A DNA stretch of 41,844 nt, taken from Candidatus Acidiferrum typicum (lineage in GTDB: Bacteria; Acidobacteriota; Terriglobia; Acidiferrales; UBA7541). Made by a program: the position numbers and the translations under genes. Location: the NCBI GenBank assembly GCA_025463055.1, contig JAOAPV010000041.1:1-41844 (forward strand). The letters run 5' to 3'. Below, in pieces: positions 7,860 through 37,624 of the stretch (positions are counted from its first letter, which is position 1; each line of letters starts with the position of its first letter). Under the pieces are notes generated by a model. That model saw only the letters and a list, made by a program, of their open reading frames with translations, was not told where the DNA came from and did not search any database.

Positions 7860-10800
7860 ATGAGAATCTACAAGACTGGCTTGGGTCGAGGTGTACTGGT
7901 TTGGAGTTCGCTGCTAGCGCTTTCGTGTCTGCAAGCGGGTGCGCAGACGACGGCGGCGCAATCGGGCGCGGAACAGACAAAACGAGTGCCGGCGCGAGTA
8001 ACGCAGACGGTGGACGATACGAATCGCGTGGCACTGCGCGGGAACGTGCACCCAAACGCGCGGGCAGAGTTTGATGGCGGCGTGGTAGTCGACGCGCAGC
8101 CCATGACGCGGATTATGCTGCTGTTCCAGCGCAGCGCGGAGCAGGAAGCGGCGCTGCGGCAGTTGATGGAGGAGCAGCAGGCGAAAGGATCGGCGAATTA
8201 TCACGCGTGGCTGACTCCGCAAGACTTCGGGAAAAAGTTTGGTCCCGCCGATGCGGATGTGCAGGCCGTAACGGACTGGCTGACATCGCGGGGATTCCAG
8301 AGCATCAAGGTGTCAAAGGGCAAGACGGTTGTGGAGTTTTCCGGGAACGTCGGGCAGGTGCGCAACGCATTCGGGACGGAAATTCACAAGTACAACGTGA
8401 ACGGCAAAGAACAGTTCGCAAACGTGAACAACCCGCAGATACCCGCAGCCTTAGCACCCGTGCTGCGCGGCGTGGTGGCCTTACACAATTTTCGGCCGAA
8501 GCCGATGTATCAACGCTTGGGCACGTTTCAGCGCAACGCGAAAACCGGCGAGGTCAAGCCAGCGTTGACGTTTACCGATGTCAACGGAACCTTTTATGCG
8601 ATGGGTCCGGCCGACTTCGCGACGATCTATAACATCCCGAGTACAGCTACCGGCGCAGGACAGAGCATTGCCATCGTGGGACAAAGCAACATCAACGTGG
8701 CGGACGTGACGGCTTTTCGGTCGATTTTCGGCTTGCCAGCGTATTCGTCAGGGCAATTGAATGTCATCTTGAATGGCCCAGATCCAGGACTTGTGGATGG
8801 CGACGAGGGAGAATCCGATCTGGACGTGGAATGGGCCGGAGCAGTCGCGCCCGCCGCTACGATTGATTTCGTGGTGACGCAAACCTCCCTCACAGACGCG
8901 GCAGCAGGGATTGATGGATCCGCGCTCTACATTGTGGATAACAATGTGGCTCCCATTCTCAGTGAGAGCTACGGAGCTTGCGAGTCCGGATTGGGAACCG
9001 CTGGGAATGCGTTCTATAACGCTTTGTGGCAGCAGGCTGCGGCGGAAGGAATTACGGTGGTGATTTCCGCCGGTGATAATGGATCGGCGGGTTGCGACAA
9101 TCCCGGCGCTCCGGCGTCGGGCGGTGTTGCGGTTAGCGGGCTGGCGTCGACACCATTTAATGTGGCGATGGGCGGGACGGATTTCGACGACGCCAACAAC
9201 CAGACAACTTTCTGGAAGCCCCCGAACACTTCAAACAATCCGCCCGTACCGCCTTCGGCCAAAAGTTACATCCCGGAAACGACGTGGAATGATTCCTGCG
9301 CCGGAACCGGCATAACTGGCTGCGTAGGGCTGAGCAGCACGGCGATCTCATTGAACTCCGTGGCCGGGAGCGGAGGGCCGAGTTCGGTGTACACCGGTTC
9401 TCTTAAGCCGAGTTGGCAAACGGGCTTGGGGGATACGGCGCGAGACCTTCCGGACGTGTCGCTGTTCTCGAGCGATGGCCAGAATAAGAGCTTCTACATT
9501 GTGTGCCAATCGGATCAGGACATCCCCGGGGACACTGGCTGCGACCTCAACAAATTCGTCACCACTTCCCCGTTTCACGATTTCCAGGCGGTGGGCGGGA
9601 CATCAGCCGCGACGCCGACTTTTGCTGGGATCGTTGCTTTGGTCAATCAGAAACTCGCTACGGTGGGAAATCCCACGCCGCGCCAGGGAAACGTGAACTA
9701 TGTTCTGTATGGATTAGCAAAGACGCCGGCCAACGTCTGCGCTTCGATCGCGGCCGTTCCACCGGCTGGGTGCGTTTTCAATGACATCGTGAAGGGCAAC
9801 GTTTCCGTGGCGTGCGTGGCAAACAGCGCGGACTGCAGCAACGTCAGCACAACGGCAAACCAGTTTGGCGCCATGGCCACGACCAAGGGCGGAACCACCC
9901 CGGCCTTCAACGCTGCTGCTGGATACGACTTGGCGACTGGGTTGGGTTCGGTCAATGTGGCGAATTTGCTCACGAAATGGGCGGCACCGGGCCGAACTGC
10001 TTCGACAACTACTTTGGTCATTCCCTCAACCGCAGTTACAGTCGATACGGCCGTCGCCGTCAGCGGCACCGTCGCACCGAATACGGCTACTGGGCTAGTT
10101 ACTTTGTTTCAAGGAAGCATAAACGGCCCGGCCCTCGACACATTTACGCTTTCAGGCGGAGCATTCAATACAACCACGACATTTCTTCCCGGCGGGTCGT
10201 ACAACGTGATCGCACACTATGGAGGCGACGGTACCTTTGCGGCAAGCGACTCCGCGCCGATGCCGGTAACAGTGAATCCGCAAACGAGCCAGACGGTGGT
10301 AAGCTTTGTGACGTTCAGCAGCACGAATGTTCCCATAATAAATCCCCCGGGGCCAATCAGCGTGCCGTACGGCTCGCCATACATTCTTCGGATTGATGTA
10401 AAGAACAGCAGCGGTCAAACTTGCCAAAATCTGAGCACAGGTACGGTAAGTTTTGTGTGTCCTACTGGCACGGTAAGTCTGACAAGTAATGGATCGGCGT
10501 TAAATGACTTTCCGAACGCACAGACGCCAAATGCCACTAGCGTGGCTAAACTGAACGACCGAGGCTTTGCCGAGGATCAGCCCATTCAATTAGGAGCCGG
10601 CACTTACGGCATAGTGGCAAGCTATTCCGGCGACTCCAGCTATAACGCGAGCACGTCTACCGCTGAAAACGTAACGATTACAAAGGCGGCTACGACGGCA
10701 GCAGTTACCAGCAATGTGACTAGCATCGCCTCGGGCGGAAGCGTGACGCTGACTGCATTGATTTCGAGTACGAGCAATGGGGCCGGACTGACCGGGACCG

Positions 10801-11261
10801 TGCAGTTCAAGAATGGAGCGAATAACCTGGGCAGCGCGGTAACGTGCACCCCGGCGGCGGCTGGTGCAACCGCTGCGTCGTGCACAGCGGCTCTCACGAC
10901 CACGTTGTCTCAATTTGTTCCGTTGAGCAGGCCGCAACCACGACTGCGCATTCCTGCCTCGCCGCTGTGGATCGCGGGATGGCTCTTGCTTTTGTTCTTG
11001 GCCTTGACGTGGCATGCTGCGCCACTGCGGAACAGATGGCCGCGGTCGGGTAAGCGTCTCGGCTATGCAGCCGCGGGCCTGATTCTGTTCGCGTGTGTTG
11101 CCGCGGGTTTCGCGGGCTGCAGTTCCACGGGGAGCAGCTCAAGCAGCGGCGGCGGCGGCGGTGGTGGCGGGACGCACACAGACAGCATTACGGCCGTGTA
11201 CAGCGGTGACGCAAATTACGCTGGCTCAACATCGGCAGCAGTCACAGTCACCATTCAATAG
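7860..11261 (+). CDS. secreted S53 (sedolisin/kumamolisin-type) peptidase with Ig-like repeats and an interrupted last repeat
   Basis: 1133 residues. A signal peptide (about 1-29, ending LQAGAQ) is followed by a pro-kumamolisin activation domain (about 45-210) and the S53 catalytic domain. Catalytic residues can be placed: Glu318 and Asp322 in GESDLDVEW, oxyanion Asp406 in SAGDNGSAG, and Ser582 in GGTSAATPTF. GYDLATGLGSVN closes the catalytic domain and includes the calcium-site region. The rest is bacterial Ig-like repeats recognised by endings such as YGGDGTFAASDSAPMPVTV and YSGDSSYNASTSTAENVTI. The final repeat is split: after TAALTTTLSQ come two hydrophobic segments (about 1035-1050 and 1068-1085) with an Arg/Lys-rich stretch between them, a Cys in FAGCSS, a Ser/Gly run, and only then the closing strands ITAVYSGDANYAGSTSAAVTVTIQ. 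Expected to be an acid-active endopeptidase outside the cell or tethered to a membrane. Confidence 0.93.
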   Translation: MRIYKTGLGRGVLVWSSLLALSCLQAGAQTTAAQSGAEQTKRVPARVTQTVDDTNRVALRGNVHPNARAEFDGGVVVDAQPMTRIMLLFQRSAEQEAALRQLMEEQQAKGSANYHAWLTPQDFGKKFGPADADVQAVTDWLTSRGFQSIKVSKGKTVVEFSGNVGQVRNAFGTEIHKYNVNGKEQFANVNNPQIPAALAPVLRGVVALHNFRPKPMYQRLGTFQRNAKTGEVKPALTFTDVNGTFYAMGPADFATIYNIPSTATGAGQSIAIVGQSNINVADVTAFRSIFGLPAYSSGQLNVILNGPDPGLVDGDEGESDLDVEWAGAVAPAATIDFVVTQTSLTDAAAGIDGSALYIVDNNVAPILSESYGACESGLGTAGNAFYNALWQQAAAEGITVVISAGDNGSAGCDNPGAPASGGVAVSGLASTPFNVAMGGTDFDDANNQTTFWKPPNTSNNPPVPPSAKSYIPETTWNDSCAGTGITGCVGLSSTAISLNSVAGSGGPSSVYTGSLKPSWQTGLGDTARDLPDVSLFSSDGQNKSFYIVCQSDQDIPGDTGCDLNKFVTTSPFHDFQAVGGTSAATPTFAGIVALVNQKLATVGNPTPRQGNVNYVLYGLAKTPANVCASIAAVPPAGCVFNDIVKGNVSVACVANSADCSNVSTTANQFGAMATTKGGTTPAFNAAAGYDLATGLGSVNVANLLTKWAAPGRTASTTTLVIPSTAVTVDTAVAVSGTVAPNTATGLVTLFQGSINGPALDTFTLSGGAFNTTTTFLPGGSYNVIAHYGGDGTFAASDSAPMPVTVNPQTSQTVVSFVTFSSTNVPIINPPGPISVPYGSPYILRIDVKNSSGQTCQNLSTGTVSFVCPTGTVSLTSNGSALNDFPNAQTPNATSVAKLNDRGFAEDQPIQLGAGTYGIVASYSGDSSYNASTSTAENVTITKAATTAAVTSNVTSIASGGSVTLTALISSTSNGAGLTGTVQFKNGANNLGSAVTCTPAAAGATAASCTAALTTTLSQFVPLSRPQPRLRIPASPLWIAGWLLLLFLALTWHAAPLRNRWPRSGKRLGYAAAGLILFACVAAGFAGCSSTGSSSSSGGGGGGGGTHTDSITAVYSGDANYAGSTSAAVTVTIQ

Positions 11262-11380: not shown

Positions 11381-11761
11381 TTAATTGGTGAATGGCGGGA
11401 AGAAAATGTTCCAAAAGGTTGGCGAGGGCACGGCAAACTCCACCGGAACTAGCGAACCTTCCTGATTCATCTGCGGCGGGCGGACGACCTTGGCTTCAAC
11501 CTTAATCTTGGTCGCGGGATTCTCGACGGTAACCTTCGTGCCTTCGCCGATGCCTTCCTTGAGAATCACCATTGCGCCGCCAGCGCTCACCGTATGCGTG
11601 TTGCCCGGCAGCACTTTCCCGGCGACGTGGATGATAACCGGCATGCGCACCAGAACGCGCTGCGAGCGGCGACGCTCTTCCGCGGTCGGCTGACGCGCGA
11701 CTGCCGGCCGCGCGGAGGGATGCGGCATCGCCGGTTTCAGATTTGGTGTTGGCGGCTTCAT
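11381..11761 (-). CDS. PilZ-domain protein (second gene of a pair)
   Basis: 126 residues. A disordered Pro-rich N-terminus leads to a PilZ domain starting RRSQRVLVRMPVIIHVAG, which supplies the Arg-rich cyclic-di-GMP entry motif, then THTVSAGGAMVILKEGIGEGTKVTVENP. The second canonical motif, D/N-x-S-x-x-G, reads TVSAGG, with Thr57 at the first position, so binding of cyclic-di-GMP is possible but not certain. Its ATG overlaps the stop codon of the upstream PilZ gene by ATGA, so the two are translationally coupled. Acidobacterial genomes carry many such single-domain PilZ proteins; function is unknown. Confidence 0.85.
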   Translation of the reverse strand: MKPPTPNLKPAMPHPSARPAVARQPTAEERRRSQRVLVRMPVIIHVAGKVLPGNTHTVSAGGAMVILKEGIGEGTKVTVENPATKIKVEAKVVRPPQMNQEGSLVPVEFAVPSPTFWNIFFPPFTN

Positions 11762-12129
11762 AGTTCAAGCCCCCAGAAGTCCATTGCAGGCGCGACCAGT
11801 TCCACGCCGTATTCCCAGCCGCCTTCGGGGCGCACGTCGCTTTTCCACACGATCACGGCGGCGTTGCTAGCGCTCATCGGCACGTTGGTGAGCGCAATGC
11901 GATGCTCGAGCGGGAGATCGTGCTCCAGAACAACCATGCAGCCGTACGGATTGACCACGCGGGTGTGCGCTTCCGCTTTGATGCGCTTGCCGGAGGGCAA
12001 ATCCCATTCCAGGCGCACAGGAACGCGCGAATTCATACGGTGGCCGCGGCGCTTCTCTTTATAGCGCGATTCCGTGAGCTTCGACTGCGGCCGCAGCTCT
12101 TTCTTTTGTTCTTTGGTCTGGACGGACAT
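11758..12129 (-). CDS. PilZ-like protein (first gene of a pair)
   Basis: 123 residues. The charged N-terminal region (KEQKKELRPQSKLTESRYKEKRRGHRMNSRVPVRLEW) ends in a basic PilZ-like motif and continues into a beta-barrel pattern (AEAHTRVVNPYGCMVVLEHDLPLEHRIALTN ... AAVIVWKSDVRPEGGWEYGVELV). The usual D/N-x-S-x-x-G is degraded to VVNPYG, so this copy may have lost cyclic-di-GMP binding and act as a structural partner of the downstream PilZ protein. GAGG lies 5 bases before the ATG. It shares a four-base stop/start overlap with the next gene and is divergent from the ChbG/HpnK gene. Confidence 0.8.
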   Translation of the reverse strand: MSVQTKEQKKELRPQSKLTESRYKEKRRGHRMNSRVPVRLEWDLPSGKRIKAEAHTRVVNPYGCMVVLEHDLPLEHRIALTNVPMSASNAAVIVWKSDVRPEGGWEYGVELVAPAMDFWGLEL

Positions 12130-34762: not shown

Positions 34763-37120
34763 ATGCGTCGTTTCAGCAAGCTGATTTTATGCCTCGGAGC
34801 CGTGTTTTTGGCGGCGGGCTGCCCGAAAAGTAGGAAGGACTACAGTCAAGGGCGCAAGGCCGAGCATCTCCAGGATTACGACGCTGCGTACGATTATTAC
34901 CAGAAAGCGCTGAAGAACGACCCAGAGAACGCCGAATACCTGATCAAATTCAACCAGGCAAGGTTTGAGGCTAGTTCGCTGCACGTGAAAAATGGCGTTA
35001 AGTTGCGCGAGCGCGGCCAATTGGAAGCCGCGGCCTCGGAGTTTCAGCGCGCGGTGGCTATCGATCCTTCCAGCCCCATTGCGGAGCAGGAATTTCGCAA
35101 GACGGTGAACGCAATCGAAGAGAAGAATCGTGCGAACAATGCGGCCACCGAACCGCCCAGGAACGAAGGCACCGGCGAACCGCCGTTGGCTTCGATGCCG
35201 CCGGAGCTCAAGCCGCTTCCCAACACAGCGATTAGCCTTTCGATGACCAACGACGCGAAGATCGTGTTTGAAACAATCGCGAAGCTTGCAGGCGTAACTG
35301 TAATTTTTGACCCGGACTTTCCTGCGCGGCGAATCCCAGTACAACTGAACAACGTGACATTGCAGCAGGCGCTGGATATCGTGTCGCTGGAGAGCAAAGC
35401 ATTTTGGAAACCGGTGACGGAAAACATTATTTTCGTGATTCCGGACCAGCCGGCGAAGCGCCGAGATTATGAAGAAAACATCGTGCGCACCTTCTATCTC
35501 TCGAATACCGTGCAAGCACAAGACTTAACGGAAGTTGTGACGGGCCTGCGGCAATTGCTGGATTTGAAACGCATATTTCAGATCAATGGGCAGAACGCGA
35601 TTGTTATTCGTGACTCTCCGGACAAGCTGCTGGTTGCGGAGAAGATGATCAATGACATCGACAAAGCCAAGCCAGAAGTCGTGATTGAGGTCCAGGTCGT
35701 GGAAGCGCGCGTGGACAAATTGCGCAGTTTGGGAATCGCGCCCGGACAAACGGCGAGCATCGCGGTGGTTCCCCCAGGCACCACGACAACCACGCCCACC
35801 ACTAACGCTAATGGAACCCCGACGACTACTAACAATGCGATCACCTTGCAAAATTTGGGACACCTCACCGGGGCAGACTATGTCGTCAACCTGCCGAGCT
35901 TTACGGCCAATGCGCTGCTAAATGATTCGACCACGAAGATCATTCAGAACCCGGAAGTTCGCTCGGTGGATGGGCAGCCGGCGAAGCTGCGCATCGGCGA
36001 TAAAGTGCCGATTGCTACGGGCAGCTTTCAGGCCGGCGTTGGTGTTGGCGGAACAGCTGGCACCGGATTTGTGAACCCCCTGGTGAACACGCAGTTCCAA
36101 TATCAAGATGTGGGCGTAAACGTAGACATCACACCACGCGTCCATCCGAACCACGAAGTGAGCATGAAGTTGAGCGTGGAAGTATCTTCGGTCACCGGGC
36201 AGTCCACAATCGGCGGAATTCAGCAGCCCATTATCAGCCAACGCAAGATTGAGCACGAAATTCGCTTGAAAGAAGGCGAAGCGAACGTTTTGGGCGGGTT
36301 GATAACACGAAGCGATACGAAGAGCATTAACGGGTGGCCGGGGCTCGCGCGCATACCCCTCTTGCGGTATTTCTTCTCCGAGGACACGCACAACAGCGAA
36401 GATGACGAGATCCTGATCATACTGACGCCGCACATCGTTCGCATGCCGGAATGGACGCGCGCGAATTTGCGGCCGCTGTATACCGGCTCGGAGTCGCAAG
36501 TGCAGGTGCGGCGCGAATCGGAAGTGCGCTCGCCAAATTCCGAGCAACGACCGTCGCCGCAGCAGGGTGGCGCCAATTCCGGACAACAAGCTCCGGGCGC
36601 AGCAACGGTTCCTTCCGCGCCGGGAACGTCGCCAACCGTGCCCACTTCGCTGGGAGCTGCAACAACCGTGCCGAGCGGCACGAATGCGGCGCAAATTCGG
36701 TTTGAGCCGCGCAGCCTGTCGCTAAAGGTTGGGCAGACACAAACGATCGGCGTTGTGGTCGAGAACGTAAACGATTTGTTCTCGATTCCCTTCTTGCTGC
36801 AATACAATCCCGCGGTAATTAGCGTGGAAGAAGTGCAGCACGGAGGATTTTTGTCCGGCGGAAACCAGGAGATCGCCATCGTGTGTTCCGGGTGCGGGTC
36901 AAATCGCAATGACCAGCAGCACGGGCAGGCGATTATTTCCGCAACGCGGCAGCCGAACACGGCGGGAGTCAGCGGCACGGGCACGATCATGGGAATCGTC
37001 GTGAAGGCGATTGCGCCGGGCTCTTCGAACTTGTCGATCGTGCAAGTGAACGCCAAGGACTCGCAGCAAAAGCCCATCGCGCTTGTGACCGGTGAAGCTA
37101 CGCTGCAAGTCCAGCCGTAG
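34763..37120 (+). CDS. secretin lipoprotein with TPR-like N-terminus and cohesin-like C-terminus
   Basis: 785 residues. Signal with lipobox LAAGCPKS (Cys20). Residues 25-130 hold TPR-like helices (HLQDYDAAYDYYQKALKNDPENAEY and LEAAASEFQRAVAIDPSSP). About 155-240 is an STN-type secretin N-domain (ISLSMTNDAKIVFETIAKLAGVTVIFD), about 242-310 a NolW-like domain, and about 310-562 the secretin core (VRSVDGQPAKLRIGDKVPI, YQDVGVNVDITPRVHP, LKEGEANVLGGLIT, IPLLRYFFSED, EILIILTPHIVR). A Pro/Ser/Thr-rich linker leads to a cohesin-like beta-domain (about 643-785). It would form the outer-membrane channel of a type II secretion or type IV pilus-like system. Two pseudopilin genes follow; no ATPase or inner-membrane platform gene is in view. 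Confidence 0.9.
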   Translation: MRRFSKLILCLGAVFLAAGCPKSRKDYSQGRKAEHLQDYDAAYDYYQKALKNDPENAEYLIKFNQARFEASSLHVKNGVKLRERGQLEAAASEFQRAVAIDPSSPIAEQEFRKTVNAIEEKNRANNAATEPPRNEGTGEPPLASMPPELKPLPNTAISLSMTNDAKIVFETIAKLAGVTVIFDPDFPARRIPVQLNNVTLQQALDIVSLESKAFWKPVTENIIFVIPDQPAKRRDYEENIVRTFYLSNTVQAQDLTEVVTGLRQLLDLKRIFQINGQNAIVIRDSPDKLLVAEKMINDIDKAKPEVVIEVQVVEARVDKLRSLGIAPGQTASIAVVPPGTTTTTPTTNANGTPTTTNNAITLQNLGHLTGADYVVNLPSFTANALLNDSTTKIIQNPEVRSVDGQPAKLRIGDKVPIATGSFQAGVGVGGTAGTGFVNPLVNTQFQYQDVGVNVDITPRVHPNHEVSMKLSVEVSSVTGQSTIGGIQQPIISQRKIEHEIRLKEGEANVLGGLITRSDTKSINGWPGLARIPLLRYFFSEDTHNSEDDEILIILTPHIVRMPEWTRANLRPLYTGSESQVQVRRESEVRSPNSEQRPSPQQGGANSGQQAPGAATVPSAPGTSPTVPTSLGAATTVPSGTNAAQIRFEPRSLSLKVGQTQTIGVVVENVNDLFSIPFLLQYNPAVISVEEVQHGGFLSGGNQEIAIVCSGCGSNRNDQQHGQAIISATRQPNTAGVSGTGTIMGIVVKAIAPGSSNLSIVQVNAKDSQQKPIALVTGEATLQVQP

Positions 37121-37138
37121 TCTGCAAGGGTTTGTAAC

Positions 37139-37624
37139 ATGCGCAAATTTCCCAAATGTGGCAGCCGAGGTCATTCCCAACATGGCATGACCTTGCTGGA
37201 ATTGATTCTGGCTTGCGCGATACTGATGATCCTATCTTCCGCGGCGCTGCCCGTTGCACGCTACACTCTCGTTCACAAAAAAGAGGAGTTGCTGCATTAC
37301 CAACTACGGCAGATGAAAGACGCGATCGACAGGTATAAGGACCTGGCCGATACAAACAAGATTCGCGTAGAAATAGGAAGCGAAGGATATCCACCGGATC
37401 TGGACACGCTCGTTAAGGGCGTGAAGTTGGGTGCGGGTGACGATAAGAAAATTCGTTTTTTGCGCCGGATTCCAGTGGACCCCATGACCGGACATGCTGA
37501 GTGGGGCTTGCGGTGCGTATCAGACGATCCTGACTCCACGAGTTGGTGTGGCAAGAATGTTTTTGACGTGTACTCGAAATCGCAAGCTACGGCGAGCGAT
37601 GGCACGCGATATGCGGACTGGTAA
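37139..37624 (+). CDS. type II secretion pseudopilin (GspG-like), first copy
   Basis: 161 residues. A 16-residue basic leader ends QHG, then MTLLELILACAILMILSSAALPVA, the class III (prepilin) signal with Glu5 after cleavage and Met rather than Phe at +1. The soluble domain resembles GspG: a long helix KKEELLHYQLRQMKDAIDRYKDLADT, then GYPPDLDTLVKGV, RFLRRIPVDPMTGHAEWGLR and a final VFDVYSKSQATASDGTRYADW. It begins 18 bases after the secretin stop and overlaps the next pseudopilin gene if that starts at 37611, so the three form an operon. It would be a minor or major pseudopilin of the secretin's system. Confidence 0.9.
   Translation: MRKFPKCGSRGHSQHGMTLLELILACAILMILSSAALPVARYTLVHKKEELLHYQLRQMKDAIDRYKDLADTNKIRVEIGSEGYPPDLDTLVKGVKLGAGDDKKIRFLRRIPVDPMTGHAEWGLRCVSDDPDSTSWCGKNVFDVYSKSQATASDGTRYADW

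Follow-up and report, generated by a model that had tools for sequence, protein, structure and literature searches.

The C-terminal sorting signals PEP-CTERM and GlyGly-CTERM run from a motif through one helix to an Arg cluster and the end of the protein. MYXO-CTERM runs from a Cys through one helix to an Arg end and, according to the available part of the report describing it (PMC11980579), is C-terminal, contains an invariant Cys predicted to be lipidated and is carried by many proteins per genome. NCBIfam release 20 already models tails of the kind described here as NF058595 ('invert_tail', lipo-invert putative C-terminal anchoring domain), an entry compared here by name and scores. A literature search found no paper on this tail, on 'lipo-invert' or on NF058595.

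The window, that is, the whole stretch of DNA analysed, comprises 41,844 nucleotides from Candidatus Acidiferrum typicum, a member of the Ca. Acidiferrales, which NCBI taxonomy places in class Terriglobia. The tail belongs to an S53 (kumamolisin-like) peptidase, which occupies positions 7860..11261 of the forward strand as one unbroken reading frame of 1133 aa with an ATG start. Pfam matches place the activation domain of S53 peptidases (Pro-kuma_activ) at residues 92-211 (E 9.5e-31) and Big_3_5 in four stretches (E 4e-26), of which the best in the final 193 aa covers profile positions 61-87 of 88 and is located past the insert described below. A GGTSAATP sequence, read by eye, is presumably the S53 active-site motif. 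The frame begins with a putative signal peptide, MRIYKTGLGRGVLVWSSLLALSCLQAGAQ (7860..7946, + strand), which satisfies a permissive signal-peptide rule and in which LALSC precedes AGAQ, a weak N-terminal lipobox being possible there. Directly past the peptidase lie two small overlapping genes on the reverse strand that look PilZ-type by eye (11381-12129), and elsewhere in the window (34763-37624) a secretin with TPR repeats adjoins a protein whose N-methylation motif resembles that of type IV pilins.

The last Big_3_5 domain of the peptidase is split, all of its parts lying on the forward strand. Its first part, strands A to E (10686..10913; HMM positions 2-62 of 86 and AF2 strands), ends at ...TTTLSQ (10913) and is followed in the E-F loop by an insert of 91 aa (10914..11186), delimited from the sequence, an alignment of 16 tails and the HMM. 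Within the insert a Pro/Arg-rich stretch leads to TM1, the putative re-entry helix (10965..11021; hydropathy and AF2 helix 97-113), and then to the Arg/Lys-rich loop PLRNRWPRSGKR (11022..11057; net charge +5), the candidate n-region, which is expected to be cytoplasmic. TM2, the candidate h-region (11058..11117; hydropathy and AF2 helix 127-149), ends in the lipobox residues F-A-G and is followed by Cys1087 (11118..11120), the predicted lipidation site, which recurs in other tails, and by a Ser/Gly-rich tether recognizable in the sequence (11121..11186). The closing strands F and G, ITAVYSGDANYAG...VTVTIQ (11187..11258; HMM positions 65-85 and AF2 strands 167-175 and 189-193), complete the domain, and the stop codon follows VTVTIQ at once. 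Since the Cys is residue 1087 of 1133, the signal is not N-terminal as in ordinary bacterial lipoproteins; the lipobox sits past a hydrophobic segment with K/R before it and fits a PROSITE-like lipoprotein core pattern. A first-pass annotation of the locus had described an insert with two membrane segments, an Arg-rich loop, a lipobox-like Cys and a Ser/Gly run that splits the last Ig repeat, past which the missing Ig strands return, and this description is borne out in each of its elements (91 aa; FAG-C; HMM 65-85).

The assignment of both flanks to one domain rests on an HMM of uninterrupted repeats (86 positions), trained solely on control ORFs and on protein regions that precede tails; in the window it aligns over positions 2-62 ahead of the insert and resumes at 65 past it. 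Big_3_5 (PF16640) is complete when both sides of the insert are combined, as judged by this HMM, by AF2 and by alignment to whole Ig domains. The best HMM score did not rise over that of the single parts when the flanks were joined (medians -1.1 and -0.2 bits; gain in 3/69 and 7/16), and the split is therefore argued from profile positions. In three proteins (L171-L173) an uninterrupted Big_3_5 repeat lies directly upstream of the split repeat, and alignment with this neighbour places the insert in the loop before the F strand. Furthermore, when the closing type is called by regular expression, Big_3_5 first halves are paired with a YxGDxNY closing in 15/16 tails and common-type first halves with another closing in 82/83, 2 of the 101 tails being unclassed (Fisher p 1e-15, which overstates independence, as the tails are related). 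One exception, L161, loses its frame at two unread bases past the Cys; in the other, L166 (also L226; G249 contig 17), a whole additional Big_3_5 domain separates the closing strands from the lipobox Cys (140 residues counted from the Cys). The presence of a whole Ig domain past the Cys in L166 suggests that this side is outside. An earlier test of type, with a model of the C-terminal part that ended early, was noisy (85/101 concordant, 16 discordant). An insert-only HMM built from common tails scores the Big_3_5 inserts at 20-31 bits, against a mean of 15 and a maximum of 29 for block-shuffled sequences, and shared descent of the insert in common and Big_3_5 tails is, on this comparison, likely. 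The window type may be a single event, and the occurrence of the device in the same loop of two Ig types speaks for a structural reason.

Structure prediction is consistent with this anatomy. AF2 models of the window tail and of L171 were obtained with 8 sequences as input. In the window tail, strands at 6-12, 22-31, 42-46, 49-54 and 68-76 are followed by helices at 97-113 and 127-149 and then by two further strands, at 167-175 and 189-193; the mean pLDDT is 66, and block values lie at 64-82 across the first half and at 72-83 from residue 171 onward. The L171 model has a mean pLDDT of 74; block values in its split domain are 75-84 ahead of the insert and 60-80 past it, and the closing strands are spaced as in the uninterrupted neighbour. 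A Foldseek search with the window model returned 1517 matches up to E 10, none of them at or below 0.001. In VIA-align, whole Ig domains pair with window residues 2 to 194, the best being 9kvu (91/94 residues, Z 11.2, rmsd 2.2). With moderate confidence, the predicted structure is an Ig fold rebuilt with the hairpin looped out.

Against NF058595 the window tail scores 27 to 31.7 bits, below the cut-off of 37 (E 2.7e-7 at 30.9 bits); at 31.7 bits the match covers positions 2-113 of 113 and ends at the last residue of the protein. Three other tails in the same genome score above the cut-off. Strand E, both helices, the lipobox and the closing strands are found in equal places in the model and in the window tail, the difference being the host domain, which is Big_3_5 in the window and another Ig type in most tails read. 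Under the cut-off are 11/16 window-type tails (of the 15 others, 5 pass and 10 do not), and many window-type matches stop at profile positions 77-95, where the closing strands begin. The window-type tail belongs with the invert_tail kind, as a variant most of whose members score below the threshold; the signal, which the first-pass annotation took to be possibly uncharacterised, is not wholly so. At E 1e-9, NF058595 matches 119/200 genomes of class Terriglobia, of which 46 are in f1 (the family of the window), 47 in f2, 25 in f72 and one, 9% contaminated, in f74; tail matches occur in three families of the class, with up to 21 in one genome, in agreement with the earlier suggestion that similar inserts exist in other acidobacterial surface proteins. 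A search of the phylum, in which only about 22 candidates per genome were scored, gave matches at E 1e-7 in 26/197 genomes, and all 21 f2 genomes among those listed match. The same-order families f68 and f69 (3 genomes) gave no match, nor did genomes of other families among the unmatched genomes listed. Four phylum hits outside the class were rejected as tails and are taken as partial closing-strand matches, because a lipobox scan printed no hydrophobic lipobox in their loci. Plasmid records searched with three common-type tails gave no match. A model-free hairpin scan found three tails, all in stretches selected for having tails; in 0.8 Mb of control stretches the same scan gave one hairpin, which lacks the Cys and is not a tail.

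With the last 193 aa of the window protein as query, matches were found in 20/89 genomes of f1, of which 14, including that of the window, have complete window-type tails; G377 and G307 have partial ones, and the remaining four gave common-type tails or matches to uninterrupted repeats. The order of parts seen in the window insert is kept in 16/16 aligned window-type tails, in which R126, G146, C147, Y174, G176 and Y180 are invariant, as are G, T, V and F of the first half, a further Tyr, and S in the closing strands. Passengers of window-type tails are S53 peptidases (L170-L172) and sortilin/Vps10-like proteins (L174, and L175 just under the Pfam cut-off). Across the scanned tail proteins (64 in a Pfam survey, without the window protein, eight further full ORFs and the ORFs with an incomplete N-terminus), the passengers include S53 and S8 peptidases, sortilin/Vps10-like proteins and DUF7948/SBBP proteins, as well as one glycosidase and one GDSL lipase. 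In short, an Ig-like domain split by a membrane hairpin that ends in a lipoprotein-like signal forms the C-terminus of many exported proteins in certain soil Acidobacteria.

The common features were compared in 101 of 102 tails (L163, a 65-aa fragment, was left out); these are a part of the matches, mostly the best-scoring, so that weak or Cys-less variants could be under-seen. Two helices are present in all 101, and the hydropathy of TM1 exceeds 1.0 in all and 1.6 in 91. The loop between the helices is net positive in 100/101, with a mean charge of +4.0 compared with +1.4 before TM1 and +0.2 past the Cys (100 tails, without L140), and is more positive than either flank in 91/100. The exception, L072 (G000 contig 146, 16884-17207), is a decayed-looking tail in a 164-aa frame, with no Arg cluster and with a first Ig half that is unreadable in frame. 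The Cys has G, A or S at -1 in every one of the 101 tails (62, 23 and 16, respectively), and in an initial count of the same tails position +1 is G in 80, S in 12, A in 6 and N in 3, with D or E in none. The PROSITE-like core fits 77/101 tails, 24/101 departing from it, and is found at 54/1530 internal Cys in controls (stop-to-stop frames of at least 350 aa from 40 control stretches) and at 5/23 Cys located at similar ends of helices. Just three columns are invariant in the full-length alignments (37 and 27 proteins), and the lipobox Cys is among them; it is also present in 14 further tails picked for atypical matches, in four more tails from the phylum search, and in both L216 and L221 when these are read in frame. 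The median number of residues past the Cys is 42, and at least 5 of the first 7 are G or S in 77/101 tails. The Gly/Ser run seems dispensable, because one tail (L229, G007 contig 71) has the Cys and closing strands without such a run. An N-terminal signal-peptide rule is satisfied by 70/73 full tail ORFs (L072 by its own TM1) and also by 102/179 control ORFs, and therefore supports export weakly.

Read in sequence, the tail has a re-entry helix and then the three parts of a lipoprotein signal peptide (n-region, h-region and lipobox). On balance, it is considered probable, by a slight measure, that the E-F loop of a C-terminal Ig domain here harbours an entire lipoprotein signal, and that the tail is lipidated, cut and retained as a strand-complemented anchor. 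The protein would be exported via its N-terminal signal peptide until TM1 stops transfer and takes the chain back to the cytoplasmic side, where the Arg loop, TM2 and FAG-C, in the roles of n-region, h-region and lipobox, would make up another type II signal inside the protein. Lgt would add diacylglycerol to the Cys, and LspA would cleave before it, producing a short piece with an acylated N-terminus (47 aa in the window) that comprises the Gly/Ser tether together with strands F and G. The two strands would stay in, or go back to, the Ig fold, non-covalent strand complementation holding the body, and the hairpin would be left on the body as a second anchor or be taken off by a further cut. 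In other words, the lipid anchoring the protein to the cell may sit on the last two strands of the domain. While the topology and site of anchoring are predictions, as are lipidation and cleavage, the last two are favoured because of a predicted N-in signal with an outer-face lipobox, the arrangement in L166 and the pathway genes. The genome of the window encodes Lgt, one LspA, Lnt and two LolA-like matches. The same genome has an ORF (L178, G000 contig 144) with an N-terminal lipoprotein-like start, in which a basic and a hydrophobic segment, CAG-CGGGGGSS and an Ig-like repeat follow one another, that is, the same parts as the tail in normal order; the control set of N-terminal lipoproteins is small (14/660 ORFs, several doubtful).

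The weak point of the embedded-signal reading is the hairpin left on the body. An LspA cut alone leaves a two-helix inner-membrane anchor on the body, so that outer-membrane delivery needs a second cut; no enzyme for a second cut freeing the body from the hairpin was found, and the reading asks either for such a cut or for residence in the inner membrane. The full form of the proposal is put forward tentatively: an Ig domain would be made as one chain, cut in its E-F loop by the lipoprotein pathway and then reassembled from the two resulting chains; a short acylated two-strand peptide would thereby hold the enzyme to the membrane non-covalently, with two or more Ig families using the device at one and the same loop. 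The order of parts, its recurrence, the conservation of the Cys, the matched closing strands and the pathway genes can be observed in the sequences, and the rebuilt fold is a prediction.

Other readings of the same features were weighed. The helices could remain as an uncleaved hairpin anchor in the inner membrane, the Ig domain folding around them in the periplasm and the Cys being lipidated without a cut or otherwise used. Two helices are found in each of the 101 tails, the AF2 models rebuild the Ig fold without any cut, and a second protease would be unnecessary; the arrangement nevertheless leaves unexplained both the Cys with G, A or S before it in all tails and the lipoprotein-like Gly/Ser run in 77/101, and is judged unlikely. 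A sequence accident confined to the window gene (gene fusion, frameshift or assembly chimera) has a practically negligible probability, as nothing in its favour was found, the frame is continuous and the architecture recurs in many genomes and with several passengers; recurrence rules out an assembly or frameshift artefact. In fact, none of the outcomes that would speak against the first-pass reading (an insert unique to this protein, a frameshift or chimera, an ordinary anchor with no rebuilt Ig fold) was found when looked for.

A dedicated sorting enzyme could instead cut at or in TM1, as for PEP-CTERM, GlyGly-CTERM and MYXO-CTERM, the body staying on the C-terminal piece or being joined elsewhere. 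The many targets per genome (up to 21 matches) suit such many-to-one pairing. Also in favour is the conservation of Pro (99%) and Trp (91%) before TM1 in the 78 aligned common tails (seven tails and 16 window-type ones were left out of this alignment). The order of the tail is not tripartite, however, the own genome has a single LspA, a duplicated LspA having been sought there and one match obtained, and the distribution of exosortase does not track the tail. Exosortase (PF09721) is missing in 14/47 genomes of the three tail-bearing families, all 14 of which have tails, and is present in 17/18 genomes of f3, a family without a listed tail match; exosortase as the tail partner is ruled out by this distribution, and the sorting-enzyme explanation as a whole is considered rather improbable.

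If the embedded-signal reading is true, the lipoprotein pathway acts here on an internal signal in a way not yet described, the tail is a natural split-Ig system that couples translation order, membrane insertion and folding, and it shows at which site these bacteria retain many of their large exported proteins. The likeness to PEP-CTERM and GlyGly-CTERM drawn in the first-pass annotation does not extend to the order of parts, since the tail runs helix, Arg cluster, helix and Cys, with at least 34 residues past the Cys in 101/101 tails. Mid-protein processing has been proposed before, as the name of another NCBIfam model (NF033207, midcut-by-XrtH), compared here by name only, suggests a protein cut mid-chain by an exosortase; this model gave one chance-level match among the tails (L168, E 3), and a literature search on it found no relevant paper. 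In the surface lipoproteins of Acinetobacter exported by the T2SS, GGG right past the Cys is one of two sorting motifs and GspN is needed, according to the available part of the source (PMC12802150). GGG directly past the Cys is found in 54/101 tails, the window having SST instead. A T2SS/GspN route for tail proteins is not supported: in 20 genomes from the three tail-bearing families no GspN match exceeded the cut-off of 29.6 bits (G228 reached 24.3), and in the genome of the window all matches to the GspD model are below its cut-off. With MYXO-CTERM, as far as the available part of its description extends, the tail shares the C-terminal position, the invariant Cys predicted to be lipidated and the many proteins per genome; it differs in that its Cys follows a second helix and is itself followed by folded strands. 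With the N-terminal bacterial lipoproteins processed by Lgt, LspA and Lnt, the tail shares the n-region, the h-region, the lipobox and a Gly/Ser tether past the Cys, whereas the signal in the window is internal, is reached after about 1000 residues and has a re-entry helix ahead of it, and lipidation would fall on a short piece from the C-terminus.
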